DNA of 64,000 nt, from assembly GCF_003073045.1 (NCBI RefSeq), contig NC_037594.1, positions 26,852,927 to 26,916,926 on the forward strand, given 5' to 3'. Positions 2,422 to 60,713 of this stretch are shown here, one piece after another (positions within the stretch are counted from its first letter, which is position 1; the number at the start of each line of letters is the position of its first letter). This stretch comes from Pomacea canaliculata (taxonomy: Eukaryota; Mollusca; Gastropoda; Architaenioglossa; Ampullariidae). The position numbers and the translations under genes were made by a program. The notes beneath the pieces were generated by a model. The model worked only from the letters and a program-made list of their open reading frames with translations. It was not told where the DNA came from and searched no databases.

Positions 2422-3338
2422 CTACTTCGTCAGGAGAGATTCGTCTTTCCTGTGGAGTAAATAATGAAACAGACGACAAACATCGCAGGCGACAACGACA
2501 GTAAAGATGGACGAGATGGTCACAACACAAATCAGTCCAACAGCTTGAGAAGACAGGCGCTGGTCAGGGACACTGGTCTTCTTGCGGACCTGCTGGCTCA
2601 TCTCTTTAGTCTCCACCTTTAACTCCTTCTGTGCTTCCTTCACTTCCTGCTGGACAATTTCCGGACTCTTTGGAACTGGAAAGTGGCAATTGCAGGTGCT
2701 GCAGTAAGTCGTGGTCTCGTCATCCACAAATTCTTCCATCTTTTCGATGAAAAATGCAATAAATAGAAACATGATTTAGAATATTTTTGTTGCTCTTACT
2801 GTAAACGTAAAGCTATTTTTCTGAGGAATGTAATACTCATCAAGTGGTTTTGTAACTGGACAAACTTTTATTGGGATTTAAACTTGGGATAAAATTGTAT
2901 CGATAAATTTAAAATGTACTATCAGAGTAAATACACGAAAAAATGTTATGTTATAATAAAATATTTAAAAAATTTATATAAAAATAGTTATGCTAATAAA
3001 AATATTACACATTCCTCGTGTTTTCTATAAAATAATTTTGCGGCAAGTTTTGGTTTTGGCCTCAATGACACCAACATAATTTGATTTAATTACACGCTAA
3101 TAATACACTGTGCTGTCATACGACATCATTACATCATACATGTAACCACTAACTCTTAGTTATACTTACTGGTCCACCTGTCACCATATCTACAGATCCA
3201 CTGATGTCGTCAGTAGTATTGGACACTGAAGACGAGTTTGAGTTTTCTTCTAATGTTTCAAGAGAGGTTGCATTTTCTTCATACTTGATAATCGAGCCCC
3301 AGGTAAAGTTTGATATAAGATCCGACACTTCAGGTGGA

Positions 3339-3389
<51 letters not shown>

Positions 3390-6300
3390 AAAGAAAATGT
3401 TTAAAACAAATACTGACCATGTCGTTGATCAGTCTTCTCTCTTTATTGTATTGAGAAACCGATTGGAAACCCGTGTAACTGGCACAGAGGTAGTTATGGG
3501 GCTTGTCAATAAAATTGTTAAAAGAACATAAATATGTAACGTCCCTCTTCTTGATTCGTGTTTAGTCTGGTAGTCGGCGTGTCGTTGACGTATTTGTCAA
3601 TAATAACCGTAGGCATTTCTAGCTCGTTAGTCAAACACAATATCATTGACTGGGAAAACACGGCCAGTGCTCTACCGCATCTTATGTCGATATCCTCTTG
3701 AGCTTATTCAATGGTCATCATAGGAAAAGAAGAAAAGTACGACCGTCATCATCATCATCATCAATCATCAATCATCAATCATCAATCATCAATCATCAAT
3801 CATCATCATCATCCCTAACCATAATTAAAGTTCTACTTGATTTACCCTTTACTTTTTAGTTAGCACTTATCCACTAAGCTGCTAGGTTGCTAGGCAGCGG
3901 GTGAGTCTCATGGGACAAGCTACCTGGGGTAGTGGCATCCGCGTCACCATATACTTCAACTTCGCACAGAACGAGGCTCTGGCCTGTCATTGACACTCGG
4001 ACCCACTGACCCCAGATGGACTGAGTACAGTTTAAGGTCGTCTTAACTCCAGCCTTGCCACTGAAGTGAAAACACGGGTAGTATATACGTCCTGTCGATG
4101 TATGAAGGCCCAGGTCCACATCGAAGTTCTCCAGTTTTTTGTCTGAAAGACATTCAACATTTACAACATATATTGTTTCAGTAATGACTGGTCTTAATGT
4201 TTTCTTACACATTTTTGTTAGTTTACTCACACGTACCTTTGCTGATAATGATAATCTGTGATACTAAAATTGGCTTCCCCAAGTCGACCTGGCACCACTG
4301 GAGCATCGTTGTGGATGACTTGGAGTAGCCGCAATAATCAGGCTTTCTATCAACTGCGTAACTGGCGGAACTGAAGTAACCGTAGTACATTTTATTCCAG
4401 CACCATGCCCACAGTGCGTAGTTCTTCAGCGCTAAGACAGAAAGAAGGAAAAAAAAAGAATTTCGGGGTTTGGTTTTCGATTGCAAAGTCATTTAGCCTC
4501 ATGAAGCTGCAACTTAGAGAGCCACTCGGAACCTAGTACCTCGTCTTTTAGTGGTGGAGGCCATGTTGGTGTGGAAACTTTAGTATCTTTCTTAATCAAA
4601 CAAATATCGTTTTACTAAGCTCGCAAAGTTTTGTGTGAAGTTTTGTCAGGTGAAACTGGAACTTTCATCAACATGCTCAGTGCAATTTTTTTAAACGTTT
4701 GAAGTCAGCTTAACCAAAGTTTCAATTCTTTGTACATTCGCTATAAAAAAAAAATGGTTTCTCGTGACCAGTGACACACACACACAAAACCGACAATTTG
4801 TTTTAATATCAAAACGGTATATATATTTCAATGTTATCACACTTTCATACTCAGTGACATATTGTCATACGGATGCCCAATAGTTACAACAATCAATAAT
4901 CTGTCATTATCTCTGCTAATAGATGGGAAGAAATTAACAACAACCTCTGTTGGTTTTTCTATCCCCCATGACCTTTACTCCGCACAGCTCGAGTTCACTG
5001 ACTCTGTTCTGGCGCACGCGCAGGTATCGACCTTTAACGTTGGGGACGCTGCACGTGATCTTGATAGTGACGTAGCAGCCCGCTCTTTGCACCACTTGAC
5101 GAGAGAAGCACGGGACGTAACATTCTCTTAATTGGAAGGTGTTGCATGAAGTCGTCCCAACGTCTACGCTGACTGAATCTGTGGACCGAAAACGGAACAC
5201 AAGGAACTCAGGTGTGGTCGAAACCACGAACTTGTGTTACTGGACTGCTAGCAGACGATTTTTACAGTTAATTACTAAAACGAGGCATGATACTACAAAG
5301 CTTCCGGTTTAGTCACATTCTTTGTTTAGGCTCGCCGAGACTAACAGCGGAGAACTTCGCAAGAGGCTAAGCGTTGGTCTTGGCAGACAGACAGCAATCC
5401 ACATATACACGTCCATGTCGAAACAGAATTCGTAAACGTAACGTGGTGGTGTGCAAAATCTGACATAGGAAAAAGAATGAGACAAAGAGAAAAGGGGAGA
5501 GAAACGGGGGGACGTGACAGAGAGAGAGGGAAAAGAGCAGCTAGAGAAAAAGTGAGACGAGGGAGAAAACGTGGATGGAAAGAGATGGAAAGAAAAAGAG
5601 TCAGAGAGAGAAAATGATCAGAGAGTGTGAAAGAGAAGGAATAAAAATGGATCAGAGATAGAGATATAGATGGAGAGAGACAAACATCAAAACATCTTGA
5701 AAGAAAACATGCATGCAGAAGTTTTAGTCAAACACAAACTTTTCATTCTAAAGCATGTGTCAAGTGAGAGAAATAAAAAATGAGTGTGGTGGATGTTGCG
5801 TGTATAGTGGATCACGTGTGCGATTTGTGGACTACCAGAGTCGTTGGAGACGGCCTCAACAACAATGCTGTTGACGAAGAACGTTGAGTTCAAATCCAGC
5901 TTCCAGCTGGTGAGGCTCTTGCTTGAAGATAATCCACACGAGCGACTGGAACTTCCTCCACTTACTGTCGTTCTCTCCACTTGAGAACAATAGACAGGCG
6001 CACCTGTCGTCTGTGAATAGCCTTTGAAAAGGAACGAGACAAACTTCATGACTGTGCAGAAGCTCTTTTTTTTAATGCATGGTTTTGTCCTACCCCACAG
6101 AAAATAACTCCCCCTCCACCTACGAAAGATTTCTCTTGGAATCATAATTCTGTCACCCTTCTTTAGTGATCTCTTTATGCTTTGTTAACATAGCATAGTA
6201 TCTTACAAATACGGACTGACCAAAGACATGCCACAAAATAAAATGTTTAGAAGTAGAAACCAAAAATCCACAACAGAAAACTAAACAAGTAATAAAAATT

Positions 6301-6933
6301 AACAATAAAATAAAACAAAACACCCCCCCCCCGACAAAAAAAAACAACAAAAAACAAAAAAACAAAACAAAAAACAAAAACCTAAAAAAAAAAAATGCTT
6401 AAAAGGAAGGTGAGAATTTCCCAATCTTGATGGGGTACTAAAATTTAGATTAACTGTTCTCCGGCTAAAACATTCTTTTGTCAAAAGAAAGTAGCGTTCT
6501 AAACTTACATAAAATATTCCAAAAAGTGCATCTTTGAAAGATTAATGAAACAAAAATTTTACTATAATTTATAATCCTTAATCGTAAATATTAGCAAAAT
6601 TAGTGAGAAAGAAAAGGGAATAATTAAGTAAAATACTTGCCATCTACTAAAGTCCTTCAAACGTACACAAAGAAAAAAAAAACCCTAAGCTGATGTAGAT
6701 GTCACCAAAATGTATTTAACACTTTAAATATTAACAAGTTTACCCTCTGATACTTTTGTTAAACATAGACACGTGGTAATTGCAATTTTATATAAACTTA
6801 AATGTTACCAAAATAAATTACTTCATTAAGTAAATATTTGCAATTAAATATCAACAAGAACCATGTCACACTTACTGTGAGGTAAGATAATCAAGAAAAG
6901 AAATATTAACTGGAAAACAAGAACATTATCCAT
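2422..6933 (-). CDS. Gene 1: FTP/fucolectin-like single-pass membrane receptor, seven exons
   Basis: Exons in transcript order are 6933-6876, 6021-5836, 5178-4945, 4431-4237, 4142-3924, 3327-3170 and 2739-2422. All have GT/AG borders, joins between A and F are phase 1, the last join is phase 0, and the product is 455 aa. The signal peptide begins MDNVLVFQLIFLF. Residues 20-159 form the degenerate first domain (LDLNSTFFVNSIVVEA, then VDVGTTSCNTF and NVKGRYLRVRQ). Residues 160-297 form the FTP domain (CQVDLGKPILVSQIIII, SIWGQWVRVS, LVLCEVEVYGD). A short N/S/T-rich stalk follows (298-350), then a C-x-x-C-x-C juxtamembrane piece, the QQVRKKTSVPDQR block, one helix at about 415-437 and a short tail. 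The Arg-x-Asp sugar-binding motif of fucolectins is not conserved here (ISKD replaces NRxDCC), so binding of fucose is doubtful. Its last exon is almost identical to that of gene 2. The ligand is unknown. Confidence 0.85.
3345..3388. repeat. (CAG)n microsatellite beside a splice acceptor
   Basis: About 14-15 CAG/CTG triplets. They lie in the gene 1 intron just upstream (minus strand) of the stalk-exon acceptor at 3328, so the minus-strand CTG run forms part of the pyrimidine-rich tract. The plus-strand poly-Gln reading is not a real gene. Confidence 0.95.
3747..3814. repeat. (ATC)n / (ATCATCA)n microsatellite
   Basis: Short tandem repeat of ATC triplets with a seven-base variant unit, in the intron between the lectin-domain exon E and the stalk exon of gene 1. 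Confidence 0.9.
5460..5690. repeat. Purine-rich (GAGA-like) low-complexity tract
   Basis: An imperfect run of GAGAGAAAG-type sequence in the gene 1 intron between exons B and C. The matching intron of gene 2 has a weaker purine-rich stretch at about 13560-14110. Confidence 0.8.
6300..6400. repeat. A/C-rich low-complexity tract
   Basis: Runs of A broken by C, including a nine-C run and AAAAC units, in the first intron of gene 1. Both strands show meaningless open frames across it. Confidence 0.8.
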
Positions 6934-8869: not shown

Positions 8870-9230
8870 GAGCTTTTTAATGACTGCCAGTGATATGGGA
8901 GATCTGATAGAGTGTAGTTAGGTGGACTGGTCTTCCTCCCATCTGAGGTCCCCCTTCTACTCCTTCATGTTAGTCATCCAGCTTTTTTTCTGTCTGCCAC
9001 GGGGTGGACTGCCTTCAGAGTAACCTCAGAGGACCTGTCTTGGGCAAAAAGTCGACATGACATGACTGAACCACTTGACTGTAGCCATCAGAGACTCCCG
9101 AGGATCCATCAGACAGGTGACTAGGCTGCGCTCGATGTCGCTTGTCCTTTGCTCTGTCAACTAAAGCTTTTCGTCTCAAATTCTCTTGTTCTGTGAGCAA
9201 GGTCCACGTTCAGCACCCATGCAACATGAT
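8870..9230 (-). mobile_element. LINE 3' remnant (C-terminal RT-ORF end)
   Basis: Minus-strand translation reads W-T-L-L-T-E-Q-E followed, after frame changes, by ATVKWFSHVMS and then GSPPRGRQKKSWMTNMKE. These match the order seen at the end of many non-LTR ORF2 proteins (ETWTLL, then ATVKRRKLxWFGHVxR, then GxRRRGRQRKxWxDNxKEW). It is a short, decayed fragment, from a different LINE lineage than the one at 1265-1750. Confidence 0.68.
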
Positions 9231-10551: not shown

Positions 10552-13500
10552 TTACACTTTCAGGTGTTTGTTTCTGCTGTGGAGTAAATAATGAAGCAGA
10601 CGACAAGCATCGCAGGCGATAACGACAGTAAAGATGGACGAAAGGGTCACAACACAAATCAGTCCAACGGCTTGAGAAGACAGGCGCTGGTCAGGGACAC
10701 TGGTCTTCTTGCGGACCTGCTGGCTCATCTCTTTAGTCTCCACCTTTAACTCTTTCTGTGCTTCCTTCACTTCCTGCTGGACACTTTCCGGACTCTTTGC
10801 AACTGGAAAGTGGCAATTGCAATTGGTGCAGTAATCTATCTCGTCCATATTTTTTTCTTCCTTTTAGAAAAGGAGAGAAACAAAAGAAAGTATGATTTAA
10901 ACGATAGCTGTTATTTTCATAATAAAAAGATTTAAGAGTATCTTCTTGCTAACGATGCTGAGATATTAATGAATGCAGAATTAATAAAAAGTTTTTTTTT
11001 TACTTGAATGTCGGTAATAAATCTTTATTTTTGTGTTGACTGAGCTGGGCTGTAGCTACTTTTCTGTCTTTTACATATTGAAATTATTGTTGTCCACTAA
11101 ACAAAAGGACGAACTGAAAATTATTAAAAATTAAAGGAGCTAATAAAACTTGCATTTTAAAAATAGAGACAACACAGATAACACTTCTAAATATTTCATG
11201 TGTATATATATAGTATCAATAATTTTATAATATACGACATATTGTGGTTTTACTTGGCTTACAGCGTCCCGGCGATGGAGTAGCCAACGAGAGGTAGACG
11301 TGGACACGACTGAGTACCGGACACGAAAAAATGTTCGACATACTGATAGGTATCTCTCAGCGATTTCCAGATTACAGTTAATGGATGTTTATCTTAAAAA
11401 TGTGATGTAGTCACTAACGTAAGACATACCCAAGGCTGCTTGATACCATTGGCAGACTCGTTAAAGTTCTCTTCCGGAATTTCTAGGGAGGTTGCATTCT
11501 GTTCAGACTCGTTGAGGGAATCACAGCCAAACTTTGCAACTTCAGACAAGAAAAGCAGCAAAACAAACAAACAAACAAACAAACAAACAAACAAACAAAC
11601 AAACAAACAAACAAACAAACAAACAAACAAACAAACAAAACAACCCACATAAACGAAAAAAAGACACAACAATAAAAACAGGTTATTGAACTTTTCGTTG
11701 TCGATTTTTAAAATTATATTTTTTTTAGTCTGCGTATTTAACACGACCGTTAACTGTAATCATTATTCATAGCACTTGCTGCAGACAGAATACAACTGGC
11801 GTAGCTGTCAATAATGTCGCCATGGCTGTCTCTGTAATCAACACAAACAATGTTATTGACAAAACAAAACATCGCGTCATTGAGCTTGCATCTTTTGCTC
11901 CTCTGATTACACGAATGCCAGATAACACACTTGCCCCTGCTGACGAAATAGTAACCGCCTAGGAAACGATGAGTTCGTTCCGACACCTAGCATTAGGAAA
12001 TATTATTGGCATTCTGGACAATCTCTTCTTGTGTGTGCGTGCGTTCGTGTGCGTGTGTGTGTGGTGCAGGAACTCATGTGGGTATATGGACATATGTCTG
12101 TACTTATGTTATTTGCATTTTAATTTTCCGTGAGGGTTTATTTGTAATCGTTGATAACTTTTCATAGCTGTCGTTTGATCTATATGACCTTTGAACTCAC
12201 CCTGTGAAAACACTGGACGATTTTCATCCTCATCACTGTAGACTTCAACTTCGCAAAGCGTGAGGCTACGTCCTGTCTTTGAGATGTTGACATAACGACC
12301 CCATATTGACCCCGTGCATGTCAGGTTCTTCAGGTCCTGGGCAGTGCCATTAAAATATAGACATTGCTTGCGTTCATTGTTTCTGTCATTCCAACGATTT
12401 ACATCGACCGTAAAGTTGGTCAGTCTGTCATCTGGAAAATACATTTAAAGGTGGTCTACAGTATCTGCCATCTGAAAAATACATTTAAAGGTGGTCTACA
12501 CTCTATAGTAGCTGTTAACTGGAAAATACATTTAAAGGTGGTCTACAGTACTATTTTCCCCATATGCTCTGTGCTTGCCACAGACGTGTGTCTTGTGACA
12601 CGAGAGCGAAAGAAGAATAAAGAAGGCTGGATAGAATGACTGCTGGTAGAAGTGCGAGAGCTAATAGGCCAGTGGACCGGATTAATCTCAACCCCGTCTA
12701 ATCAAAAGTATTCATTAGAAACTTACCTTGGGCAGAGAAGTAACCGAGTCACACATTCAAAGGAAAAAATACCGACGAGTCTGTGTCAGGCAACAAAATA
12801 TCCTGAATTGGGTATCCATTATATATATATATACAATCTGTCTAATTTAATTTAGTGAAACTGTAAAGATTAAACGCAGCCATAAATTTTATTCCATTTG
12901 TTTAAAACAATAGTCCCTAATGTTAACCTATGTAAGTTTTCCTCAGTTTACTTACACTCTGACGAGTCTGCAATGGTGATGTATGACACCAGTCTCAGCC
13001 TCCCCAAGTCCACCGTCCACCAGTGAGTCTCTGTGACAGGTGATACTGTACGGCTGCACCATGGTCTGCCCTTCACTGAACCATCAACTGCGTATCTTGC
13101 TTTAAAGTTCTCAGGTGAATACCAACTTCGCCAGCACTCTGCCTTTAGCGCATAATTTTTTAGCGCTGTGTGGAAAAGGAAGATCGAAAAAATTGTCAGA
13201 ATGGAAGCAAGTCAACATCAAAATGTTTACAAAATTGCCGGTTTGTCTTTTTTGTCACTGTTGTGCACCGTCTTGAGGGATAGCATAGGATTTAAAAAGA
13301 AAACAACCTCTGTGGTAAGCATAAGATGTCTGAAAGTTCCTGTTTAACATTCTCTGTTGCTTTGATACTTACTGTCCACATGTCAGTTCTTACCGTCAGT
13401 CTTTATGTGTGAAATTAGTCACATTACACCTCTCAGTCGTCCAAACAATCCAAATAGAACCAAGTGGTATTTTCAAGCAAAGTAATGCTTAATTGGATAA

Positions 13501-14836
13501 ATTAAAATATTTAAAATTCCTTATGGCAAGTACCTTAATGCACACACATACACATAAATAAATAAATACAGAGAAAGAGAAAGGAAAGTGGTGCGCATTT
13601 ATATGTAGAAATCTGTTCTTATTTCATCCTCACTTATCTCATGTCTCGTGTGTTAAATATCATCACAAGTATTTCTATCTCTATCCTTGACACAAAGAAA
13701 ACCAAAAATCGAAACTCAACGTCACCTTTGTTCGTACTTGACCTGCCCATGACCCTGACATTACACAGCTCGAGGTCACTGGGTCTGTTCTGACGGATCC
13801 GCACGTATCGACCCTTGACGTTGGGGACGTTACACGTGATGTTGACTGTGACGTAGAGACCGTTATGTACCACTTCACGGGTGTTACACCAAACGAAGCA
13901 GGCCGTGTCCTGGAAGGTGTTGCATGAAGTTGTCCCGATGTCCACGCTGATTGAATCTGTGAACAGGAGCAGAACACAGGTTAAGGTGCGCGAAAACAGG
14001 TGTTATATACTAAGATCAAGTAAAATAAAAGAATAATAACGGTTTAAACATCTGGGTAGGTCGGTAAATAAACAGATAAGTGGAGAGAAAGAGTGGAAGA
14101 GAGAAGGAAAGGGGTGGTCGCCTAAAATTAAAAACTGTCTATAAGGGAAAGCTGCTCAGGAAAACTTAATTATACACATAGCGATTTATTGGTTTAAAGA
14201 TAAATCATTTCAAGAAAACCTGTAAAGGGTGAAGAGGATAATATATACTGAGTTGTGTGTGTTTTACTTACCAGTGTCATTAGTGTCAGCCTCAACTACA
14301 ACGCTGTTGATGAAGAAGGTTGTGTTCAAGTCCAGCATCCAGACTTTGCGGACGTCGGGGGACATGTCGGAATGTGTGGGAGAACAACAACCAGGCTGGG
14401 GAGTCGACTGTGAATAACCTTTAGAGATAAATTTAAGAAAAAGTTATCTTTAGCTAGAAGAGAAGGATTTCCCTGAAACGTGGTTTCCAAATGTCAAATG
14501 TCCAAAAGTCAAACGCAAACATTTATAAACAGATATATCATGATCTTCTGTCATAAAAGAAACAATTATTAATTAGAAAAATGTTTGATCAAATAAAGTG
14601 ACACCTAAATTATGTGTAACCTAAGTGTAAATATAGAATTGTTATTACTTATTATCACTGAAGCAGACTATACAGCAAAAATATCACTTCAAGACAGACT
14701 ACTAAAAGGGAGAGACAATCGGACATGTTGTTTGGTCATTGTCAGCAGAGCATTGAAAGTTTTATCCCGAACAATTGTCAAGTAAACTTTTTATATTTAA
14801 TTTAACCTAACTCTACCCATTAAGGAACAACAACAA

Positions 14837-14874
<38 letters not shown>

Positions 14875-16593: not shown

Positions 16594-16594
16594 T

Positions 16595-16650
<56 letters not shown>
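16594..16650. repeat. (ACAG)n microsatellite
   Basis: About 14 GACA units in tandem. Confidence 0.95.
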
Positions 16651-16651
<1 letters not shown>

Positions 16652-45638: not shown

Positions 45639-48264
45639 CAGCCTCCTCCTCTGCTTGTCAGTCATATACTGGACTTTAAAACTTTGGATCGAGATAAAAA
45701 GCCAGATAAATTTGCTATGTCAGACCGAATTTCAAATAATATTAGTATATGAACACTATGTGTCTGCAATAGTTTTACACTGTGATTGCTTTCTGCTCAT
45801 GCCCATAAAAGTATCGTGTGTGTTTTGATTTACAACCATTGGTCTAAGGGAAACAACCCTCTTTGCAGTAGCTTAGAGTTTCAGTTTATTTAGAAAACAA
45901 GAAATAATAATTGTTTGTCACTGTCATTACTACTTTAAGAATCAACTTCCGTTTACATCATCAGTTTTATGGATGCTTTTTAATGCCATGTTTGTATTCA
46001 TCTTAGGCAACACATAGCACTTATTGTAATGCACGTGACATGCCGGTTGTAAATGAATTAATAATTATGTATTTGTGCTTTCTGTCTCAAGTTTTATCAC
46101 TGACAGCAGGATTGTACCGCAACAATTCTTTTCCATATAAGTCGGTACTTAATAACAAATACACATAATACTAAGGGACAAATAAGAAATAAATGTAGTA
46201 GAAGTTCACGGGTGTCAGAAATAATGAAAGATAGGTATGAAGTGGGAACCGTTTCTAACCTATAAAAGAAAAGAAATGCCAGAAGACGAAAAAAGAAGAT
46301 GTTGTTGCTGTTCCCCAAGAGGGAGTGCCTACTTGTTTTCAAATGTTTTGAGGCGTCTAAGATTAATGGTGGGAGAAAACTGAGGCAGAAATCACATCCT
46401 GCTCAAGTAGACTCGTGACAATGGCGTGTTCTTTCATCAAATCGCAAAGATTGCAGCAAATTTCTCAGATTACAGTAGATTGATTCTGGATTTTTGTTTC
46501 TTATTATTGACTAAAGATTGGACGAGACAGAATCAATTACCTCCCAGTCACTGCAATCTCACCCTTTAACATTTAAAATAACTTTTGGAAACATACACCG
46601 AGACCTGAGTGTTGGTTTACCAGGCAGGCGACAAACACTCATTGACCCAGCTTTTCTCTGTCAATCATCAAGTTCTTTAGCACAATAATATCCTCCACCA
46701 ACTATAATCACTCGCCGTCCGAACTTTTTTCCAGTAGATATTCATTTCATTATGTGTAAAATCTCCGCTGGGAAGCGAACAGTAACTGCAGAGATGTACA
46801 CCCTAGAAAATTGTAGTCAAAGAATAAGAATAAAATTATGACCTTAAAAATTCAAGGCGTTCTTTTATGGTCAAAGGGGAACAACTAGGTTAACTTGCGA
46901 CATAACCATTTCAGGAGTTACTTCCCCCAGTTATGTTCGCTCCTCGTGTGCATTCCTTATCGAAACACTTGTTATTTGTTACACCGCAATTTGTTGCGGG
47001 ATTAAATTCGCAAGAGTGAAGTTTAAAAAGGCGAGAAGGAGAAGAGAATTGAAATAACAGCACAACAGGTTTTGAAAGTAAATTTTATCCAAATATGACC
47101 AAGTGGTGCTCTTTCATCAAGCACTTTTAATATCCTTTTAAAACAAAGTGAGGAATAACAAGAGAACCGTAGTGCTCCATGTGAACAAGGATGCTCACTT
47201 TTAGTTTCATGGCTTCTGAGAGACAGAATATAACTTTTACAAAAATAAATTCAGTAACCTGTTAAATTTACATCACTTATTAACTTGTGCCTTCTCTGTT
47301 TGGAAACACACGTTTGATTACACGGAAACTAGAAACAAAGAGCTGGCGCTGACGACCCTCATTGTTTTATATTTATGATATTGATTAAAAACCTAATACT
47401 CATGTGATGGTAGAGAGGTTCTCACATTAAGTTTTGTTTATTTCTGGTTTGCCTTTGGTACATTTCAAGAACATCAATAATGGTCTTCATCAATTGTTGC
47501 AGAGTATTGACCATATTCCTTTCATAACAATATGTCAGCTACACTGGAGCATATAACAAACATTATTGTGAAGAATAAACCTCTTATTCCAGTGCAAAAC
47601 ATGACTCGTAGTTTATTCACAAATATTTTTTTTATTTGCGCATATTGTTCATATTTATTTGCCCCTCGCAGTTTTTCGGTTAATGTATCTGTCTAGGTGT
47701 TGTATTTGAAATGTTCCTTGTGCTTTTAATTAAAGATGGACTGTGAGACAGTTGTATCTACGTGCAAATTCTTTAAATAAATATAAACAGAAGTAGGAAT
47801 TGTGATATTCTTCTGTGTGCAAGTCATTCAGTCAGTGCATTTGTGTGTGCGTGCACATGTGTAAGGTTTGTATGTTAATGAATGTGTACGTGTGTGTGCG
47901 TGTGTGTGTGTGAGAGAGAGAGAAAGAAATTAAAAGTGATGAAAAAAAGAATTATTGAGCACGTCAGCCATTTTCCCTGTTTATCGACACTACAATGGGA
48001 ATAAAATACATTTAATTTCATGTAGGAGACTACAATGAGAATAAATTGTATACAATGTTACTCAGAAGGAATTAAGATTAACTCGGTCTCACGCAATAAT
48101 AAGACATTGACTTTTCCTGGGGATGTTTTAAGAGGGAGGTTTGGTGGACAGCAGCACCGCCACGTCTGCGGTCAACTCTCATACTTTGCCGATAACTGCC
48201 GATGATACAACTGATGATGAGCCTCATGGTGCAGTCGAGGGTTGGCTGTAGGCGAGCAACAACA
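45639..48264. other. Spacer between genes 6 and 7 with the duplication junction
   Basis: The part to about 46680 is the 3' flank of gene 6 and is repeated after gene 8. The junction between the two duplicated units lies at about 46718. From there the sequence repeats the region upstream of gene 5. A GT/GA microsatellite sits at about 47880-47925. No extra gene is seen. Confidence 0.6.
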
Positions 48265-51200
48265 ATGAGAGGAGCTGGAGATGCATCGCGAAAACTGAGT
48301 ACAGTGATACCTCGGTTCTCGAACATAATTCGTTCCGGGAAGACGGTCGAGAACCAAATTGTTCGAGAACCGAAGCAATGAAACCCATAGGAAATAATGG
48401 AAACTGGATTAATTCGTTCCAAGCCCCAGAAAATGCCTATTTACTAGCCTAATTTGTATATAATATGTAGAAAAACATGAGTCTCAACAAGAAATAAGAA
48501 ATAAAAGTGTATTTATTAAAACAAAACCAAAAAACAAAAAAATAAATAAAATGTACAGTACAGTAAATTGTGTTTCATTTACTGTACCTGTACCAAACTT
48601 TATGGCAGGAGGGAATGAATGTGGAGGGAGGAGGGAAGGGGGATGGTTATTGTTTTGAAGGGGAGTCGTCTTCAATAAAAACAGAGGGTAACTGCTCTTC
48701 AGGTGTTTCTGTTCTCTGTATCTTTTGCTGAGGAGAATCAGAATCTTGCTGTGCAGTTGTTTGTCTGATTTCTTTACGGAAGAATTTGTCAAATTGTTTG
48801 CTGTTTTTTCTCCTTTGCAAAATTTTGCGGAAAGTGGACATAACCTTGTCATTAAAAATGTTAACTGCTCTATTTGCTACCAACTTTATCAGGGTGATGT
48901 TGTTCAACAAAATTTGCGATTTCTGCCCATTTTGCACACATTTCATGACTCTCTCCACAAAAACGTGATTCTCTCTCTCTCTGCACTCACACTGATGACG
49001 CAAGCAAGGCGCGCTGGGCAGAATGAACGCCATTCGGCTCAACTCGGCTCATCTCGGACGTTCGGATGTTCGAGTTCCAAATATTTGTTCGGATTCCAAG
49101 ACAAAATTTTCTCGAATTTCCTGGTCGAATACCGATTTGGTCGAAAGTCAAGGCGTTCGAGAACCGAGGTATCACTGTATTTGTCTCATCTTATTGTTTG
49201 GTAAGTGTGTCTGATGATGTTATGCAGTACCTAACATGACCGATACCATGGATGTTGAAAATATTTTATATATGTGAATATATATTGAATATATTTGAAC
49301 TCTGTTGATCAAGAGACATCTGGAGTTTCAGGCCACAAGTTTACTTCTGAGTGCATGTAATATCATCTGTAGACTTCATTGTTGTTATTTATTGTGCAGT
49401 TTGTTGTGTTCATATCAGTAATGCATTTAATTAATGCTCTAATGATAACCCTTATAACTTCTTCTTCTTATTATTATTATTATTATTATTGTCAGGGACC
49501 AGTCTGTGAGGGAGGTTGTTGCCCCTGTCTTTCGTTTTGTTAAAGATTATTGCCTTGCATTTATGAGTGTGTTGGTTGCGTCGCGGTTTCACGTCAGAAC
49601 CCGACGTCATTTTATGACGTAATTTTAGTCTGAGGCAAGTGAAAAATATTTGGAAGAAAGCAGACGGCTGTGAGCAGGGAAGAAAGGCGGACGTAACGTG
49701 TGTGTGGTGTTCGCTTGGGATATTGTGTGTGTATCGATCCCTGCAAGTTTATCTGTGTGATTCCCTGGAGTATATTTGTGGTGCCTGGGTCATGTGTGAT
49801 CCCCATCAAATATATTTTGAGTCGTCTGTAGGTGTCTGCCGAGTCAGCACCTGTTATTAATAAGCATCGGAACGTGTATGTGGTTGCCTCAAGTCGATTG
49901 TGTGGGTGGATATCAGTCAAGTGTGAGTAACTAAGACTCTAATGAATTTATTCCAAAAACATACGACAGATTGAAGTATATAGATATGGACATGTGTATG
50001 CCGTCTCAGTGACAGTAAGAGAACTGTTAGAGTTGCAGATCGCTGTGTGGAAGATCTACTGACTATATGTATATATTTAGTTGATGTTGATTGATTTAAA
50101 GTTATTTTTGTTTCCACAACAAATCTTTGTGCTATTTGTTTGAAAGAATACGCAAGGGGACGCGTGCGTGTTGTGAGAGAAAGTGAGATTTTATAAAAGC
50201 GCGTTCTTGACAATTATTATACTTCAAAAAATGTCAAAAATTACAATTAGTTTAAACTTGAGATAATTACAAATACTATAGGTGCAGAAGAAATGATTTA
50301 TTTCTGATGAAAATTTTCACAAGGGGGGTTGTCTAAGAGTATATTAAGGCAAAAGAGTTGGAGCTGTTAAAAGGTGCTACAAACAGAAAAAAAGCGTGCC
50401 CGAGTCGAGATATGAACCCAGGATAACCAATCTTGTACTAGTGACAGGCACTAATCGTTACGACGACTGACCGCCTAGTCAACAGGCAAGCTCAGTGTGC
50501 TATACATATCATAGTGATTAACAACAGCCTTAGTAAATGATATCAAGAGAAGAGCAAGAGGAAGATGCTAACCGCGGTTGGATTGATATATAAATAAAAT
50601 TTCTGCAGCCACTTTAACCTAGCAATAATTGTACCTGTTCCCTGTAAACGTAAAACATAATTAAAGGGTTAAAAAGTTGATATACTTGTTTGGTGCGACA
50701 GTGGGCATTCACTCAAACCCTTCAGCTTTCATTCTCTTTGAAAGGTTGTCCAGGACTACAGGCTGTGAGCACACCATCAAACATGAGTCTCCAGGCAACG
50801 CTGCTGCTGGATTTGAACAGAACAGTCTTTATCGACACAATCGTTTTAAATACTACATCTGGTAACCATGGTAATGTATCTATCCCTTTTTCTGGTTAGT
50901 GCTTTCTTAAAGAACTCCCCTGCTAGGAAACAAAGAAATAATAATGAAGATATGATAATAAAAATTATTACTTTATTATTAGTAACACTATCAACTGGTT
51001 TGGGGACGTAGGTCCTTTCCAATCGTTTGAAGTCAAATTGCGTAAGTGAACTGATTGTTTAACTAAATCAGTATCACGATCATTAAAACATGAAAATAAA
51101 CAATAAACTTTCAAACAAATAAAGAACATAAACCCTGTCGATTTCTGTCGGGTTTTCTAGAGAAGACATTAGAGATTATTACAATAATTACAGTAATTAA

Positions 51201-54021
51201 AGCAGATGTCAGATTACTAATTCCTGTTTACACAGATTACATTGACGTGGATGTTGGAACTGAGTCATGTGACTTATTCGATGACAAAGCATGTTACATC
51301 ACATGTTCATCACGTAAACTCGTCCAGAACACTGCATACTATGTCACTACGAATGTCACGTGTGACGTGAGCAACGCGAAAGGGCGTTACGTGCGACTAC
51401 GTCAGAACACCACAACTGATCTACCTGGGCCATGTGACGTAAAGGTCACAGGATGGCTTGACCTCGGCAAAGGTGTTTATTTTTCTTGCTTCTTGAACTT
51501 CTCTGTCGCAGTGTCGCTTCCAGGTGATGAACACTTCATCGTGTCCAATGGGACCACAAGGCTGCTTTGTAAGACTTCTCTTGATTAGTCAGAGTTGAAA
51601 CACGTTAATAAACCTTTCAAGAAAATCTCAATATTTCAGGTTCATTTTTCTTACCAATATGTTTGAAGCAGCTGTACTGCAAGAAATGCAGGACAAATGT
51701 TTTCTCCAGTTCAATATTAATGTTTATTCGTTTATGATGTTTTTAAATGCAATATTTTAGCACGATATTTGTCCGATGATTTGTGGAAAGGAATACGTCC
51801 TTTGCACGGAAGGCCTCACTACAGCCCCGCACAAAAACATTAGGTGTTCTTGGTTCTGCAGGTTTGACTTGTAGATTTGATTTCTTTATTTCACAGCTTT
51901 TAAAAATTTTGCACTGAACGCACCGTGTGATCAAAGCACAAAATTTTGGGCGCCCAACAAAGCTGTTGACGGAAACAGAAATGGTTATTTTTTTAACTAT
52001 TCATGCTCCCATACAATCCTTTTCAAAAATTTCCAACAACGTCACTGGTGGCAGGTGGACCTCAGGAAGCTGATATTTGTGTCACACATCATCATCGCCA
52101 ACCGTCTCGACTGCTGCGGTGAGTAGAGTCTGCATGTAATGGAGAATTCTTCCAGATGAAACAATTAATATCCGTCTACCCGATCTCGCTCAGTCTCCGC
52201 CATTCATTAATGCTGCTGTAAATTGTTGACTTTCAGCACTAAAATAATCATCGTCCTCCACCATTTCTTTACTTACATATGATAAACTGCCAGGACAGCT
52301 GATTAAATATTTGATGGAATTTCTGGTATATAAAATGGGAGAAGCATTCTGAGACATGGCTGCGTGACTGTGTTCACTTATGTGTTTGTGTGTGTGTTCC
52401 AGGTGACAGACTGGCCAACTTCACCGTGGAACTGGGGCGTCTGGAGTCCAACGGCAGCATCACCTACACGCTGTGTCGTTACCATGACGGCGTTGCTGGA
52501 CCCCTGACGACCCTGAACTGCACGAGGTCCATCTGGGGTCGGTTTGTCCGAATATCATTGATGGGAGACGCTCTCACACTGTGTGAAGTGGAGGTTTATG
52601 GCGACATGGATGACAACAGCACTAGGCTTGTTCCAGGTAACATGGCATCACTGTGTTTAGGGCCCCCGGTAGTGTAGGGGCTAGAACATCTACCTGTCAC
52701 CCCTACCCTGGGACAAGATCACATCTTGTCGGGGATTTTTTTACGGGTACTCTGGTTCTCATGCCTTCCTCCTCCCTTGGTCATAGATATCTTTCAGTCT
52801 TCTATCTGTTTTTTTTTCTCCATTTTGCTGGCTTTATATCTGACTAATTATATTAAAATTAAAAAACAAACCTGAGAAAAAATGTCCTGTGCAGTCATCT
52901 TTACCAGCTCCATCTGTGACGACGAGCCCGGCACATCTTTGGCACCATCCACCATGAGGACATGGACGATGAGACCCACTCAAGGAACGACTGAAGCAAA
53001 AGTCTCACAAACGTTTGTAGATATCACTTCTAAAGCTTTAGGGAATTTAAATGCTAAAGTGTCAACGATGGATCCAACAGTTGTGACTGAAACTAAACTG
53101 TCTGCAGAGCAGTCACACGAGGCACAGGTAAATAAGAACACGGAAAATTAATTTAACCACAATTAGTTAAAACAGATATTCTTATGCTAGTTAACATTTT
53201 AACATCATACTAAACTATGTTCATTTATAATCAAAAGCAGCTAGAACATATTAGTTTTGTTCAGTTTTACAGTCAGTATTTGTACTTCGTGTGAACAGTC
53301 TTCGGTGGTATCCTACTCAACATAATAAATAAACATTAGATAGGAAATTATTACAGCAAAACTACCACCACGAGGACCACACCACCACGACCATCATAAG
53401 GACGACGATGACCGTCACTGGCTGGTTATTTGACGACTGGCATATGATAATCATGATGACTAGAGTTGGTTAAAACTTGGACGACAAAAATATAAATTAT
53501 AATCACAATCATCCACATACATCTTAAAACTAAAAAAAACCAAACTCTTCTCTTTGCCTCAGATCACTACTGCGACTCCTCAGATAACTACTGCTACTCC
53601 GGTAAAGTACAACTACTGTGCATGCAAATTCTGCAATAAAACAACAAAAAGCCAGGACGAGGTCGATCAGAAAATAAAGCAGACAACTAAATCACTAAAG
53701 GTAAATAATTCCGCCCTGGGAAAACAAGTCCGAAAGAAGTGCAGCGCCTCTGACCACCGCGTGTCTGCGACAGCCATGGGGATAATCGGCACCACAGTGT
53801 TGTCCTTCATCTTCCTTGTTATTGTCTTGTGTGATGTCTATGGTCTCTGTCAATATTTATTCAAAAAAAAGAAAGAGAAACGCAGGAAAGTCGAAAAGAG
53901 AGAGAAAGAAAAAATAGCTTGTCTTGCAAATTACAGAATGAGTTCTGGGGAGAACAAAATGGTAATTTTTGTAGGTGAAAGATTTTATCAATATTTACTT
54001 TTTTGTCACAGCATGGTATAA
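48265..54021 (+). CDS. Gene 7: FTP-lectin receptor, signal-peptide exon split by a transposon
   Basis: Copy of gene 5. Exon A is 48265-48301 plus 49180-49200, interrupted by an 876-bp Tigger/pogo element. Exons B-G are 50745-50870, 51236-51472, 51897-52118, 52403-52636, 52895-53127 and 53563-54021, all in phase; 522 aa would result if the insert were ignored. Reading from the old ATG stops inside the element after about 39 codons. An ATG within the element at 49023 is in frame and in phase with the remaining CICLILLFG core, so a rewired start is possible. The FTP domain keeps VDGNRNG, HWWQVDLRKLIFVSH, ANRLDCC-G-D-R and SIWGRFVRIS. The tail differs from gene 5 because its A run has eight rather than nine A: FKKKKEKRRK and about 50 residues in place of FKKKERETQE. 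Functional status uncertain. Confidence 0.78.
48302..49177 (-). mobile_element. Tigger/pogo-type DNA transposon, internally deleted, 876 bp
   Basis: Perfect-looking terminal inverted repeats begin CAGTGATACCTCGGTTCTCG at both ends, flanked by TA (48300-48301 and 49178-49179), as expected for the Tc1/mariner superfamily. TIRs of CAG-x-x-ATACCTCG type are typical of Tigger/pogo. Minus strand keeps the transposase C-terminus: AVNIFNDKVMSTFRKILQRR, DKFFRKE and an acidic end EEQLPSVFIEDDSPSKQ at 48647. The DDE catalytic core is absent. It is missing from the equivalent place in gene 5, so it inserted after the segmental duplication or only into this copy. Confidence 0.9.
49490..50212 (+). mobile_element. 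Fossil solo LTR, 723 bp
   Basis: Starts TGTCAGGGACCAG, ends GTTCTTGACA, and is bounded by the 5-bp direct repeat ATTAT (49485-49489, 50213-50217), the signature of LTR element integration. The body resembles the inverted copy at 17301-18247. No internal genes are attached. It lies in the first intron of gene 7 and is absent at the matching point of gene 5, so it is younger than the duplication or was inserted in one copy only. Superfamily cannot be assigned. Confidence 0.85.
50395..50490 (-). mobile_element. tRNA-related SINE-like fragment
   Basis: On the minus strand GTCGTAACGATTAGTGCCTGTC ... ATCCTGGGTTCATATCTCGACTCGGGCACG has the layout of a tRNA-derived SINE head, with a B-box-like GGTTCATATCT. 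It belongs to a stretch of about 340 bp (50222-50565) present in gene 7's first intron and absent from gene 5. Confidence 0.5.
52655..52850 (+). mobile_element. tRNA-derived SINE-like repeat in gene 7
   Basis: Duplicate of the repeat at 37840-38035: GGGCCCCCGGTAGTGTAGGGG head, CACCCCTACCCTGGGACAAG, then a pyrimidine-rich tail. Same distance after the exon E donor. Confidence 0.6.
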
Positions 54022-55689: not shown

Positions 55690-58600
55690 ATGGCTGGAGC
55701 TGTATGTCTGCTGAATATCTACATAATTTTATTGGCGGGTGGTGAGTAGAACCTTCTGGAACACAGAGAACTCCTCGAATACGTTAAGCTCAGTACATAT
55801 AAATATTGTTGTGTTTATATATTTGTTATGGATAAATAGTAGAGCAGGTCCATGCAATCTAAAAACAAGTCACCAACAGGATTTAATTTAATACTAATTT
55901 TAGACTTAAATTATTGTCTAAAATATATGAATATGAAGAGATATACAAAGTAAAGAGAGAAATAAGGACAGACGAAAAGACAGACGAAGGCAGAGAAACA
56001 AACTGACAACATTTGGTACGGTGAATCATTCGATGATGTTTAATCACTGAAAGGTGGTGTGACAGTCAACACCCAGGACCTCTGCAAGGCAAAGGTCAAC
56101 TTGACCAACCAACCAATCACCCTGTCATCACAGAATGACATCAATGGTTTCTGTTGTTCGCCATCAATCCCTCACCTCCAGGAAACCACGGTGCTGGATT
56201 TAAACACAACGTTCTTCATCGACGCCATTGTGCTAAATGCTACATTTGGTAACCATGGTAACGCATGTTTTTAAAGGTTCACTTATACATATGCCCCCAC
56301 CCACACACTGTTATGTTATAACTTAAAAATGAAAAAGTATTTCACTTGTAACATCATTTCTGCTTTTTTAAATAATTGTGACTGAACCCTCTTCTCCATG
56401 TCTGTATGTCTACCCACCTCACCTTTATAGAGGCAGAAGTTATATTTTCCGCTATTAAATAATTAAGAACAATATTGATGAGACTGTCGGTAAACACACG
56501 TGAAGAAATCGAAATGAATATTGACGATGAAAGGGTATTAACAACAGGGTGTGCAGTCAGTAGCGTGTCGTGTAACAGTTCGATTCTACAATTCATCTGT
56601 TTGCACTGTCCACAGTCACGTGGTCAATGGTTCTTACACATTGATGTTGCAGAATAACAAGTACTAGTCAAGAATGGATATGGTCATAACCAACAGTTTG
56701 TCAAATATGACAAAGGCTTATTAGTTACTGAGTCAGTCGTTGACCTGTTTGTGATCGCACAATTCTACTTGTATTTGACACGTCACAGTCGTCGTTATGA
56801 CCAGCGACACCTGTGATAAACACATTGGGAGTGAATCAATTGTTTACCTCTTAATATAAATATCACTGTAGGTCCGAGTATGGATGTCATTCAGCACTTA
56901 ATTGCACTAGAGCAGTCTATTGTAGGTCTTAACTGTACTAGAGCAGTCTACTGTAGGTCATAACTGTACTACATCAGTCTACTGTAGGTCATAACTGTAC
57001 TACATCAGTCTACTGTAGGTCATAACTGTACTACATCAGTCTACTGTAGGTCATAACTGTACTACATCAGTCTACTGTAGGTCATAACTGTACTACATCA
57101 GTCTACTGTAGGTCATAACTGTACTACATCAGTCTACTGTAGGTCATAACTGTACTACATCAGTCTACTGTAGGTCATAACTGTACTACATCAGTCTACT
57201 GTAGGTCTTAACTGTACTACATCAGTCTACTGTAGGTCATAACTGTACTACATCAGTCTACTGTAGGTCATAACTGTACTACATCAGTCTACTGTTGGTC
57301 ATAACTGTACTACATCAGTCTACTGTAGGTCATAACTGTACTACATCAGTCTACTGTAGGTCATAACTGTACTACATCAGTCTACTGTAGGTCATAACTG
57401 TACTACATCAGTCTACTGTAGGTCTGCACTGTACTAGAGACGTCTATTTTAGGTCATAACTGTACTACATCAGTCTACTGTAGGTCATAACTGTACTACA
57501 TCAGTCTATTGCAGGTCTTAACTGTACTAGAGCAGTCTACTGTAGGTCATAACTGTACTACATCAGTCTACTGTAGGTCATAACTGTACTACATCAGTCT
57601 ACTGTAGGTCATAACTGTACTACATCAGTCTACTGTAGGTCATAACTGTACTACATCAGTCTACTGTAGGTCATAACTGTACTACATCAGTCTACTGTAG
57701 GTCTTAACTGTACTACATCAGTCTACTGTAGGTCATAACTGTACTACATCAGTCTACTGTAGGTCATAACTGTACTACATCAGTCTACTGTAGGTCATAA
57801 CTGTACTACATCAGTCGACTGTAGGTCATAACTGTACTGGAGAAGTCTATTTTAGGTCATAACTGTACTACATCAGTCTATTGCAGGTCTTAACTGTACT
57901 AGAGCAGTCTACTGTAGGTCATAACTGTACTACATCAGTCTACTGTAGGTCATAACTGTACTACATCAGTCTACTGTAGGTCTTAACTGTACTATAACAG
58001 TCTATTGTATGTCATAACTGTACTACATCAGTCTACTGTAGGTCTTAACTGTACTAAAGAGGCTATTGTAGCTATTCAACAGATCTCCCTATACACAACC
58101 TATTTTCTCCATTTTGTTTACACACAGACTGCATCGACGTAGACATTGGGACTGAGTCATGTGGCTCTTTTGACGACAAAGCTTGCTACGTCACGTGCTC
58201 ATCCCGTCACATCGTTCAGATTACGGGTTGCTCCGTCACGATCAACGTCACGTGTGACGTGGACAACGTAAAGGGGCGTTACGTGCGTGTGCGCCAGAAT
58301 AGCGCCGCTGCTCTGGAGCTCTGTGACCTTAAGGTCATGGGGTATCTTGACCTCGGCAAAGGTTCGTCAGTCTTGTTTAAGTTAGGTTTAAGATCAACAA
58401 TGTTTAGTAGCATTAAACAAAACAAAACGACAAATGTGTTGGGGATTTGTACAGTCAATAATATTTCTTTCTGTCACAGATTCAAGAAATTTTGCTTTGA
58501 ATGCACCATGCACCCAAAGCACAACATACAATGACTGGCAACCAGGACGAGCGGTTGACGGAAACAGAAATGGTAATCAGAACAGACTTTCATGCAGCCA

Positions 58601-60713
58601 CACCACTTTTACCCCCAGCCACTGGTGGCGAGTGGACTTGAGGAAGCTGATACTCGTGTCCCTCATCATCATCGCCAACCGCCAGGACTGCTGCAGTGAG
58701 CACAGTTCACAAGCAATCGTTAAGTTTGATCAAAGCTGGTTTGTGCCAGCTCAGAACATCTACTAAGGTGGTTTTGGTAGATGTGTGGGTGCGGATGTGG
58801 TGAAGAATGCTGTAGACACGTTGTTGTTTTTATGGAGTTCACCTTTTATATTGTTTGACATGCTTTGCTGGTCGTAAACAATCCACGTTGTCTATGACAC
58901 ACTTTGCTATATTAATTACTGTACTTGCAGTATGTAAATATTAAAAAAAACAGGGTGCATTTGTGTGGTTGTATTTGTTTGTTTGTGTGTGTGTTCCAGG
59001 TGACAGACTGGCCAACTTCACCGTGGAGCTGGGTCGTCTGGAGTCCAACGGCAGCATCACCTACACGCTGTGTCGTTACCATGACGGCGTTGCTGGACCC
59101 CTGACGACCCTGAACTGCACGCGGTCCATCTGGGGTCAGTTTGTCCGCATATCAAAACTGGGGCCACCCCTGACACTGTGTGAAGTGGAAGTTTATGGCG
59201 ACACCGACGCCAATAACACAGAACTACTGTCAGGTGAGGCTGTATCAGTGCAAATCTGTAAATTAATATCAACGGGAGGTCACGTGTAAGAACAGGTTCA
59301 CGTCACTTTTATTTATCTATACACCGCTGACGTCTGGTTCATATATCTATTTATCTAATAAATGTGTTATTTGTCAATTGTGATTATCATCTGAAGAGAT
59401 GATAACGCCAGGTACTTCATACGACGACAACAACGGAACGGACGAGTCAACAACGCTTCTAGAAGTCAGAAGGGAGTCCACAATGTTTGTCAGAGACACT
59501 GATGGGACTACAGTGTCCACAGGACTTACAAGAGCCACTGATGGGACTACGGTGTCCACAGGACTTACAAGAGCCACTGATGGGACTACGGTGTCCACAG
59601 GACTTACAAGAGCCACTGATGGGACTACGGTGTCCACAGGACTTACAAGAGCCACTGATGGGACTACAGTGTCCACAGGACTTACAAGAGCAACTGATGG
59701 GACTACGGTGTCCACAGGACTTACAAGAGATACTGATGGGACTACAGAGTCCACAGGACTTACAAGAGATACTCATGAGACTACAGTGTCCACAGCACTT
59801 ACAAGAGACACTGATGAGACTACAATGTCCACAGGACTTACAAGAAACACTGATGGGACTACAATGTCCACAGGACTTACAACAGAGACGAGGGCAACTG
59901 CAGAATTGACGCCTCACCTTGAAGAGAGCATTGTAAGCAGATTCCCAACATTATCGTAGTTTCTATTGTTCAGACCATTTCACAGAATCTTAGAACTCAT
60001 TATTCTAAGGCATTGTCAGTAGACTGTACATTGAAAGTTGGTCGACATCATGTGATGTCTACATTCTGCTAAGGTCAACGGTTATACCCCTCTTATATAA
60101 ATATCATTTAACTATCATTTAACTTTCTCTTTAAAATACCGTTGCATCCACGGCCACAATGGCTGCATTTGACTGATGAACCACCACACATGTCAGTAAA
60201 AAGTCCTGTACAGCTACTCTACTTGAAAGTCTATTGACCATACCCCTAAAGAGACTAGATATCAAAGTCACCATCTTACTATTGTCGAGTATTTACATAC
60301 AAGGAAGATTAAAATAAATAATTTAATATAACAGTAATAACCATAAAAGATTCTGATGTTCACTCTGTTTTGTGTTTTTTTTTTTTTACCCAGGTGCCAA
60401 CATCATTTACAAATACAAAACACTACTACTGCCGGTGTAGATTTGAACCCGCCAAACAAAATAAAAGCCAGCAAGAAGCTGAAGAAGTGGTGCAGATGAC
60501 TGAGGAACTGAAGGTCCAGCATCTCACCTTGGGCAAGCAGATCCGCAAGAAGTCCAGCGCCGCTGACCTGCGAATATCTTCAACAGTCATGGGGATAGTC
60601 GTCACCGCAGTTATCTCCTTCATCTTGCTGTCATCGTCATGTGTGACCTCCTTCCTTTTTGTCAGTTTTTGTTCCACAAGGAAAAGATAGGGAGAGGTCG
60701 GGGCAAGGTCTGA
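55690..60713 (+). CDS. Gene 8: FTP-lectin membrane receptor, helix frame shifted as assembled
   Basis: Copy of gene 6. Exons are 55690-55741, 56054-56257, 58128-58361, 58480-58695, 59000-59233, 59397-59932 and 60394 onward. An extra in-frame ATG lies two codons upstream at 55684. The FTP domain has VDGNRNG, CSHT, HWWRVDLRKLILVSL, ANRQDCC-S-D-R, SIWGQFVRIS and LTLCEVEVYGD, so the sugar-binding pattern is intact. The stalk has about ten 13-residue units (LTRATDGTTVSTG). One T is missing in the helix (CATCTTTGCTG in gene 6, CATCTTGCTG here, near 60627), so the reading as assembled ends at 60690 with 590 aa. The shifted frame is still hydrophobic (FILLSSSCVTSFLFVSFC), so a membrane segment could survive. 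In gene 6's frame the stop is at 60713. Intron B-C contains a 1.2 kb minisatellite. Confidence 0.83.
56905..58070. repeat. 31-bp minisatellite, about 37-38 copies
   Basis: Tandem units of 31 bp (ACTGTACTACATCAGTCTAC plus TGTAGGTCATA) filling most of the gene 8 intron between exons B and C, ending about 60 bp before exon C. Rare variant units (TCTATTTTAGG at 57443 and 57846; TATTGCAGG at about 57508 and 57879) recur 12-13 units apart, which suggests a higher-order duplication. Confidence 0.97.
59490..59882 (+). repeat. 39-bp coding minisatellite (stalk of gene 8)
   Basis: About ten 39-bp units coding LTRATDGTTVSTG-type peptides; five successive units are nearly identical, more uniform than in gene 6. 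Confidence 0.95.

Follow-up and report, generated by a model that had tools for sequence, protein, structure and literature searches.

Membrane-anchored fucolectin-type genes in a tandem array of Pomacea canaliculata share a last-exon module with loci across the genome

Over most of a 64,000-nucleotide stretch of the Pomacea canaliculata genome (contig NC_037594.1, here C5; positions C5:26,852,927-26,916,926, hereafter the window), genes for lectins of the fucolectin type (FTP) follow one another in tandem, each with a predicted membrane helix near the C-terminus. What would such membrane-tethered lectins read, and how would they report it? On balance, we favor the reading that type I membrane lectins are encoded here by a tandem array, most of which falls within the window. 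On this view, a fucose-reading outer domain would stand on a stalk, and a shared aspartate-bearing membrane module would engage a common signaling partner. The predicted architecture, a fucose motif in five of the eight genes, the array, and the shared module can be read directly from the DNA.

Searching the window with three FTP exons identified eight FTP loci, two on the minus and six on the plus strand, in agreement with the tandem cluster described in a first-pass annotation of the same DNA. The partner exons of each locus were located by exon-by-exon searches of the window. GT-AG introns and the phases 1,1,1,1,1,0 are satisfiable in all eight exon models. The phases were read off the splice sites first and then imposed by script, with some exons placed by hand; since they were required rather than found blind, what the agreement shows is that every model can accommodate the pattern, and it is not an independent discovery. 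Eight seven-exon genes of common phase had been proposed, which holds for the phase pattern; however, no first exon of G7 was found in the window by the exon searches, and the frames of G4 and G8 are broken. Five models (G1, G2, G3, G5, and G6) are fully intact, with open frames and all splice sites.

On the minus strand lie G1 (2422..6933; E1 6933-6876, E2 6021-5836, E3 5178-4945, E4 4431-4237, E5 4142-3924, E6 3327-3170, E7 2739-2422), encoding 455 amino acids, and G2 (10552..15294; E1 15294-15234, E2 14418-14272, E3 13956-13726, E4 13165-12956, E5 12431-12201, E6 11539-11430, E7 10860-10552), encoding 432. The plus-strand genes begin with G3 (19388..24939; E1 19388-19442, E2 19886-20068, E3 20959-21192, E4 21562-21795, E5 21970-22194, E6 22970-24231, E7 24565-24939), head to head with G2 and encoding 855 amino acids, followed by G4 (28186..32558; E1 28186-28240, E2 28719-28898, E3 29228-29473, E4 30581-30802, E5 from 30930, E6 31567-31880, E7 from 32148), which is broken by two frameshifts, in exons 5 and 7. 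G5 (34948..39168; E1 34948-35005, E2 35933-36058, E3 36424-36660, E4 37082-37303, E5 37592-37825, E6 38083-38315, E7 38746-39168) and G6 (41069..45638; E1 41069-41120, E2 41517-41657, E3 42599-42832, E4 42945-43157, E5 43469-43702, E6 44281-44816, E7 45318-45638) encode 510 and 576 amino acids, respectively. The last two are G7 (50745..54021; E2 50745-50870, E3 51236-51472, E4 51897-52118, E5 52403-52636, E6 52895-53127, E7 53563-54021) and G8 (55690..60690; E1 55690-55741, E2 56054-56257, E3 58128-58361, E4 58480-58695, E5 59000-59233, E6 59397-59932, E7 60394-60690). Relative to G6, G8 has lost one base in the membrane exon, which brings an in-frame stop at 60,690, and not at 60,713 where its end had been placed. 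The frame lesions of G4 and G8 may be genuine, or they may be errors left over from long-read sequencing, the P. canaliculata assembly in print being PacBio-based (PMC6129957; papers are cited by PMC number and drawn on in excerpt).

First exons were identified in seven of the eight models, with hydrophobicity as part of the selection criteria. None was found for G7, since the duplication break there, near 48,300, runs through the counterpart of the G5 first exon. The signal peptide previously ascribed to every product is thus only partly borne out: a stricter 19-residue window detects an N-terminal hydrophobic segment in five of the eight models (not G2, G3, or G7). The cluster itself is larger than the eight genes first described. 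It continues beyond the window with one extra gene on each side, L009 upstream on the minus strand and L010 downstream on the plus strand, giving an array of at least 10 genes, three minus and seven plus; the downstream neighbor has a split E5. Two further family genes lie near C5:29.004-29.011 Mb, approximately 2 Mb off the array, the one at C5:29.004 Mb with a split E5 and an interrupted E7. A divergent family gene at C5:27.62 Mb has a 1108-amino acid open frame and the C-terminal membrane cassette described below; it carries an FTP domain (E=5.1e-14, read from two joined exons), and its first domain matches PF22633 below cut-off (E=0.0054).

The lectin identity of the outer domains was confirmed by profile searches. 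In a Pfam scan of G1, G2, G5, and G6, PF22633 was over cut-off in the second domain of all four proteins and PF00754 in three, G1 scoring 27.7 against a cut-off of 28.2 bits. The G8 FTP domain, the one of the eight searched against solved structures, matched FBP32 (3cqo, E=2.8e-36) and the eel agglutinin (1k12, E=2.6e-17), and the six distinct sequences at E<=0.001 are all fucolectin-type (FBP32, eel lectin, fucolectin-related proteins, and Sm-hPAF). The first domain, which had been described as degenerate and galactose-binding-like, is a degenerate FTP-like domain (hhalign E=1.1e-5, probability 82%, 102 columns). PMC5712786 defines a fucose motif, HX24RXDX4(R/K), and a cation motif, h2DGx. 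By these definitions, G3, G5, G6, G7, and G8 have the complete fucose motif, with a His-to-Arg spacing of 26-32 residues compared with x(24) in the motif: 26 in G6 and G8, and 30-32 in G3, G5, and G7. The spacing of G6 and G8 equals that of the eel agglutinin, judged by residue numbers (His52, Arg79). G1, G2, and G4 have lost the fucose motif, and the cation motif is kept in seven of the eight and lost in G1 only. By eye, the neighbors L009 and L010 likewise lack the fucose motif, so that all three minus-strand genes of the array are without it. A canonical FTP domain in every gene, as first proposed, therefore stands for five of the eight, and the possibility that all eight are functional fucose lectins was rejected.

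Between the lectin domains and the membrane, the stalk is 63-440 residues long in the seven models measured (frameshifted G4 left out). Its Ser+Thr content is 27-39% in six of these, as expected from the Ser/Thr-rich stalk originally reported, and 13% in G2. Three stalks contain 39-bp (13-residue) repeats: 27.6 copies in G3 (23125-24199), 10.5 in G6 (44360-44770), and 10.1 in G8 (59492-59886). By eye, the G3 repeat unit looks unrelated to the G6/G8 unit, yet the period of 39 bp is identical. A hydrophobic segment fit for a membrane helix lies near the C-terminus of all eight models, with the frame shifted in G4 and G8, consistent with the single helix already noted. A basic RKK stretch stands directly outside the membrane. 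With a simple hydropathy boundary the tails are 3-51 residues long, exceeding 50 in G7 only; tail tyrosines are confined to G2 (one) and G7 (three), and no paired tyrosine motif was seen in the tails by eye, in line with the earlier report of no motif resembling immunoreceptor tyrosine-based activation or inhibition motifs. In the young pair G5 and G7, the tail sequences part after the first lysines. In the four scanned proteins no Pfam family was over cut-off in the last exon; a sub-cut-off AKAP95 match touches that of G1 (E=0.031, 15 vs 26.8 bits), and Herpes_BLRF2 (E=0.044) was likewise far under cut-off in these proteins.

The first-pass annotation did not report that three genes have lost the fucose motif, that some genes are broken, or, above all, that the last exon is a genome-wide module. 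This exon encodes a cassette consisting of CxC, the motif [RK][RK]KxSAxDxRxS, and a helix with Gly-x17-Asp spacing. In G1 it occupies 2425..2715 on the minus strand (CxC, QVRKKTSVPDQRLSS, the Gly-x17-Asp helix, and a basic end), and the cassettes of the other genes lie within their own E7. Genome searches spanned 440,159,624 bases on 24 contigs, and the cassette searches covered this genome. The G3 last exon gave 29 matches at E<=1, corresponding to 28 loci: the 10 array genes, the two genes at C5:29 Mb, and 16 weaker loci on C1, C2, C3, C4, C5, and C12, all of which display the cassette motif on reading. With a model of eight FTP-gene copies these 16 scored 37-60 bits, compared with a best of 16.9 bits in 8000 shuffles. 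A second search, with the C12 copy, brought back all but one of the 10 array genes together with nine new loci, of which eight were real; C4:17946406 (E=0.26) was rejected as a cassette when examined. The cassette is thus supported at 36 loci (10+2+16+8), 24 of them outside loci. With a model of all 24 copies the best non-cassette frame reached 8.9 bits (4190 frames in 25 stretches), and a profile comparison of five window copies with 15 outside copies gave E=2.4e-25. The Gly-x17-Asp spacing is constant in 32 of 32 copies, 30 by script and two by eye; four were excluded from the count, G4, G8, and the interrupted copy for their frameshifts and G7 as a near-duplicate of G5. An AlphaFold model of five window copies predicts one long helix spanning the membrane part (residues 52-96), with a mean predicted local distance difference test score (pLDDT) of 86-93 over residues 61-90. 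Similar C-terminal pieces are presumably present in unnamed oyster proteins, and the cassette may predate this lineage.

Separate FTP clusters were also observed at C14:4.96-5.23 Mb (28) and C13:8.39-8.42 Mb (6) among 89 genome matches to PF22633, and represent another subfamily. They were rejected as members of the same family, no cassette being present in the stretches L002-L008 and L011-L014. One C14 FTP gene is followed by a cysteine-bearing frame that is PAN-like by eye.

What stands above the cassette outside the array was addressed by inspecting 4-6 kb of upstream DNA for eight of the 24 outside loci. Clear or likely domains were found in five (L047, L049, L050, L060, and L063), and three were without a clear domain: L048, L061 (a MopE-type match below cut-off), and L062 (nothing above cut-off). 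In L048 (C3:19516529-19521528), reverse-transcriptase-like open frames were seen by eye 5' of the cassette locus. Upstream of the cassette at C12:5212739-5212972 and on the same strand are two kringle domains (E=2.3e-18 and 4e-13) and a sushi domain (E=3.3e-7), and a 333-amino acid open frame links the stalk to the cassette. At C2:19645265-19645522 one kringle (E=1.5e-11), a second one below cut-off, and a sushi domain (E=3.7e-6) lie upstream, and PF12248 (E=9.3e-24) precedes the cassette at C5:25667645-25667893. The locus at C12:2545560-2545805 (L050) has a C-type lectin match barely above cut-off (E=1.2e-4, 23.2 vs 22.6 bits) and a PAN match below it (18.1 vs 21.4 bits). For the two kringle loci, among 36 cassette loci, the nearest kringle is 1.6 and 1.1 kb upstream on the same strand; kringles occur at about 16 places genome-wide (32 matches), and a rough hand estimate of the chance expectation within 3 kb is about 0.002. 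The upstream domains are assigned to the same genes as the cassettes by inference, on the grounds of strand and distance (1-5 kb), supplemented by the open frame in the case of C12:5.21 Mb. Read in this way, the cassette is also carried under predicted kringle-sushi and PF12248 ectodomains, and probably under a C-type lectin ectodomain, and a receptor superfamily seems to share one membrane chassis, with the FTP proteins as one of its branches.

The invariant helix aspartate suggests a partner common to all cassette receptors. Extending this, we propose with some hesitation that P. canaliculata has in this last exon a receptor chassis not described before, present at 36 loci under at least three and probably four kinds of ectodomain (FTP pair, kringle plus sushi, PF12248, and C-type lectin), with all of the receptors signaling via one partner that has a basic membrane residue, and with sensing and signaling evolving apart. 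In this full form the proposal is possible but rather doubtful. If it were true, the FTP array would be the lectin arm of the chassis, and unexplained snail resistance proteins might carry the same module.

The recent history of the array was examined through its duplicates. G5-G6 and G7-G8 are copies of one block: the first (35776..46682) and the second (50565-61758), both on the plus strand, share four long aligned pieces that are 91-93% identical. Membrane-tethered two-domain FTP proteins in tandem, as originally envisaged, are supported, and the array has duplicated recently. In the resulting young pairs (G5-G7 and G6-G8), E4, which encodes the pocket loops, differs at 28/435 sites compared with 39/1206 in E2+E3+E5 (Fisher p=0.0067), E7 differs at only 6/713 aligned sites, and introns differ at 119/2734 (first introns and intron 2 of G6-G8 left out). 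Counted by eye, 16 of the 19 amino acid substitutions in the E4 part of the young pairs lie around the pocket, in the segment bounded by the conserved QST and WW; the basic triad does not vary. Values of dN/dS, the ratio of nonsynonymous to synonymous substitution rates, are unreliable for E7, whose tails align in differing frames, and nucleotide counts were used instead. Between paralogs (G3-G4, G3-G5, G3-G6, and G5-G6), synonymous divergence is 0.23-0.41 in E5 compared with 0.56-1.01 in E3 and 0.60-1.01 in E4, that is, 1.4 to 4.4 times lower, which suggests gene conversion of one exon. G1-G2 exhibits no E5 dip (1.50) but a low E7 synonymous value (0.14). A 31-bp minisatellite in intron 2 has 37 copies in G8 (56899-58056) and approximately eight in G6 (42303-42541), and is likely a length-polymorphic site. 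Intron 5 of G6 contains a palindromic insert of approximately 0.4 kb with 14-bp repeats (43712-44115), absent from the G8 copy, which resembles a small inverted-repeat element.

How might such a receptor work? The outer FTP domain would bind terminal L-fucose, or a sugar like it, displayed by microbes, parasites, or other cells, and the copy-variable loops around the pocket would tune what is read beside the fucose. The highly variable length of the stalk would set the reach of the lectin, and the CxC of the module may join chains. Signal transmission would fall to a common membrane partner, engaged through the invariant aspartate at the inner end of the helix; a partner is called for by receptor tails that are both short and unconserved. 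The need for one had been anticipated before, and is strengthened by the invariant aspartate and by tails that are unconserved even between G5 and G7. The motif-less copies G1, G2, and G4 may have another ligand, act as decoys, or be decaying. Surface recognition by hemocytes or mucosal epithelium would be the most likely use.

Several observations weigh against this account. E4 is not significantly faster than the introns (G5-G7 p=0.058, G6-G8 p=0.75), and the stalk exon E6 differs at 46/536 sites in G6-G8, more than E4, and at 5/233 in G5-G7. With E4 at about the intron rate and E6 above E4 in G6-G8, diversifying selection on the pocket is not established, and positive selection was rejected as a demonstrated property; of the fast evolution formerly claimed, what stands is the excess of E4 over E2, E3, and E5. 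Because resemblance to the module was the criterion by which the outside loci were found, conserved positions were favored, and the invariance is partly a matter of ascertainment. The AlphaFold helix model, built on five sequences, has a mean pLDDT of 69 overall and a predicted template modeling score of 0.29, and the helix aspartate could merely mark the inner membrane edge. Finally, the loss of the fucose motif in three of the eight genes, together with broken or incomplete models in three of the eight, means that part of the array may be decaying.

The same evidence can be set against other explanations. The short tails (3-51 residues), which differ even between G5 and G7 and contain no paired tyrosine motif by eye, and the basic RKK just outside the membrane would suit an adhesin or shed decoy that sticks to its target or is released into mucus and does not signal. 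RKK is not a classical furin site, which counts against this alternative, and a Gly-x17-Asp spacing fixed in 32 of 32 cassettes exceeds the needs of an anchor; we consider it unlikely. A role in gamete recognition would accommodate the variable loops, the repeat-built stalks, and the young duplicates, and oyster bindins are diversified sperm F-lectins (PMC5712786). Bindins are, however, described as stored in sperm acrosomal rings and as having one to five F-lectin domains (PMC5712786); in the snail proteins a membrane helix follows. The anchor also stands under kringle-sushi and PF12248 ectodomains, which do not point to gametes, and the gamete explanation appears quite improbable.

Two further alternatives concern the state of the genes themselves. 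The G5-G6 and G7-G8 blocks, being 91-93% identical, might be two haplotypes joined by the assembler, in which case the true array is smaller; heterozygous contigs were filtered in the published assembly (PMC6129957), a step that can fail. The blocks nevertheless differ in structure, in the 37-copy array compared with approximately eight copies in intron 2, in the intron 5 insert of G6, and in the absence from G7 of a G5-type first exon. Such differences can also arise between haplotypes and are not decisive. The remaining genes are clearly distinct, and we give this explanation little weight. The least probable, in our view very unlikely, is that the loci are largely decaying paralogs of another FTP family with no present function. 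The frameshifts of G4 and G8, the missing first exon of G7, the split E5 of the downstream gene, the split E5 and interrupted E7 at C5:29.004 Mb, and the divergence of E4 at about the intron rate would all be expected of decay. They are opposed by five of eight models that are fully open with all splice sites, by the strong conservation of E7 in the young pairs (6/713 sites), and by the constant triad. A tandem array of membrane lectins with a common signaling module remains the reading we prefer.

If a common aspartate module underlies many snail receptors, its partner can be sought directly, and the cassette would provide a sequence handle for listing mollusc surface receptors regardless of ectodomain. 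The FTP array would in addition be a natural panel of near-identical lectins varying mainly round the fucose pocket, some of them without the site, for studying how specificity changes.

Among known systems, the snail proteins resemble F-type lectins such as AAA and MsaFBP32 in FTP homology, in the fucose motif (five of eight), and in the cation motif (seven of eight), and MsaFBP32 also in having two domains in series. They differ in the degenerate first domain and in the stalk and membrane helix that follow the lectin domains. Membrane domains do occur among eukaryotic F-type lectins, for example, Drosophila furrowed and CG9095, and the family is expanded in molluscs (PMC5712786). Furrowed and CG9095, which combine an F-type lectin domain with C-type lectin and CCP domains and a membrane helix (PMC5712786), are comparable in that their F-type lectin domain is part of a membrane protein; C-type lectin and CCP domains of this type were not found in the four of eight snail proteins scanned with Pfam, where only PF22633 and PF00754 were at or near cut-offs. 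Fucolectin families are expanded in Gigantopelta (PMC7895826) and in Pila (PMC13336756). Oyster bindin shares diversified mollusc F-lectin repeats, but is a single polymorphic gene of the sperm acrosome and not a membrane-anchored array (PMC5712786). In line with the earlier statement that no named family has this arrangement, no published family with the same full architecture or with the shared membrane module was found in the open-access literature, in excerpt, most subscription papers falling outside this scope.

The logic of the proposed snail chassis would parallel that of vertebrate immune receptors and their adaptors. In the snail Biomphalaria sudanica, SudRes1 (a galactose-binding domain, MEGF, a membrane helix, and PTP) is likewise a clustered membrane receptor with a galactose-binding-like ectodomain, and its region is tied to schistosome resistance (PMC12297450). 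Its MEGF and phosphatase domains were not found in the four of eight P. canaliculata proteins scanned, and the tails of the latter are short. By analogy, the closest counterparts of the FTP array are the Biomphalaria resistance clusters. In vector snails, parasite resistance has been linked to clusters of single-pass membrane proteins (PMC4361660, PMC7494358), and the Biomphalaria GRC (grctm1-7) and PTC2 genes, compared here by description only, are also snail clusters of single-pass membrane proteins with large ectodomains. The PTC2 genes are described as having no known domains besides the helix (PMC7494358), unlike the FTP array, and the GRC TM1 genes have more than 50 residues after the helix, a length reached in the FTP array by G7 only.

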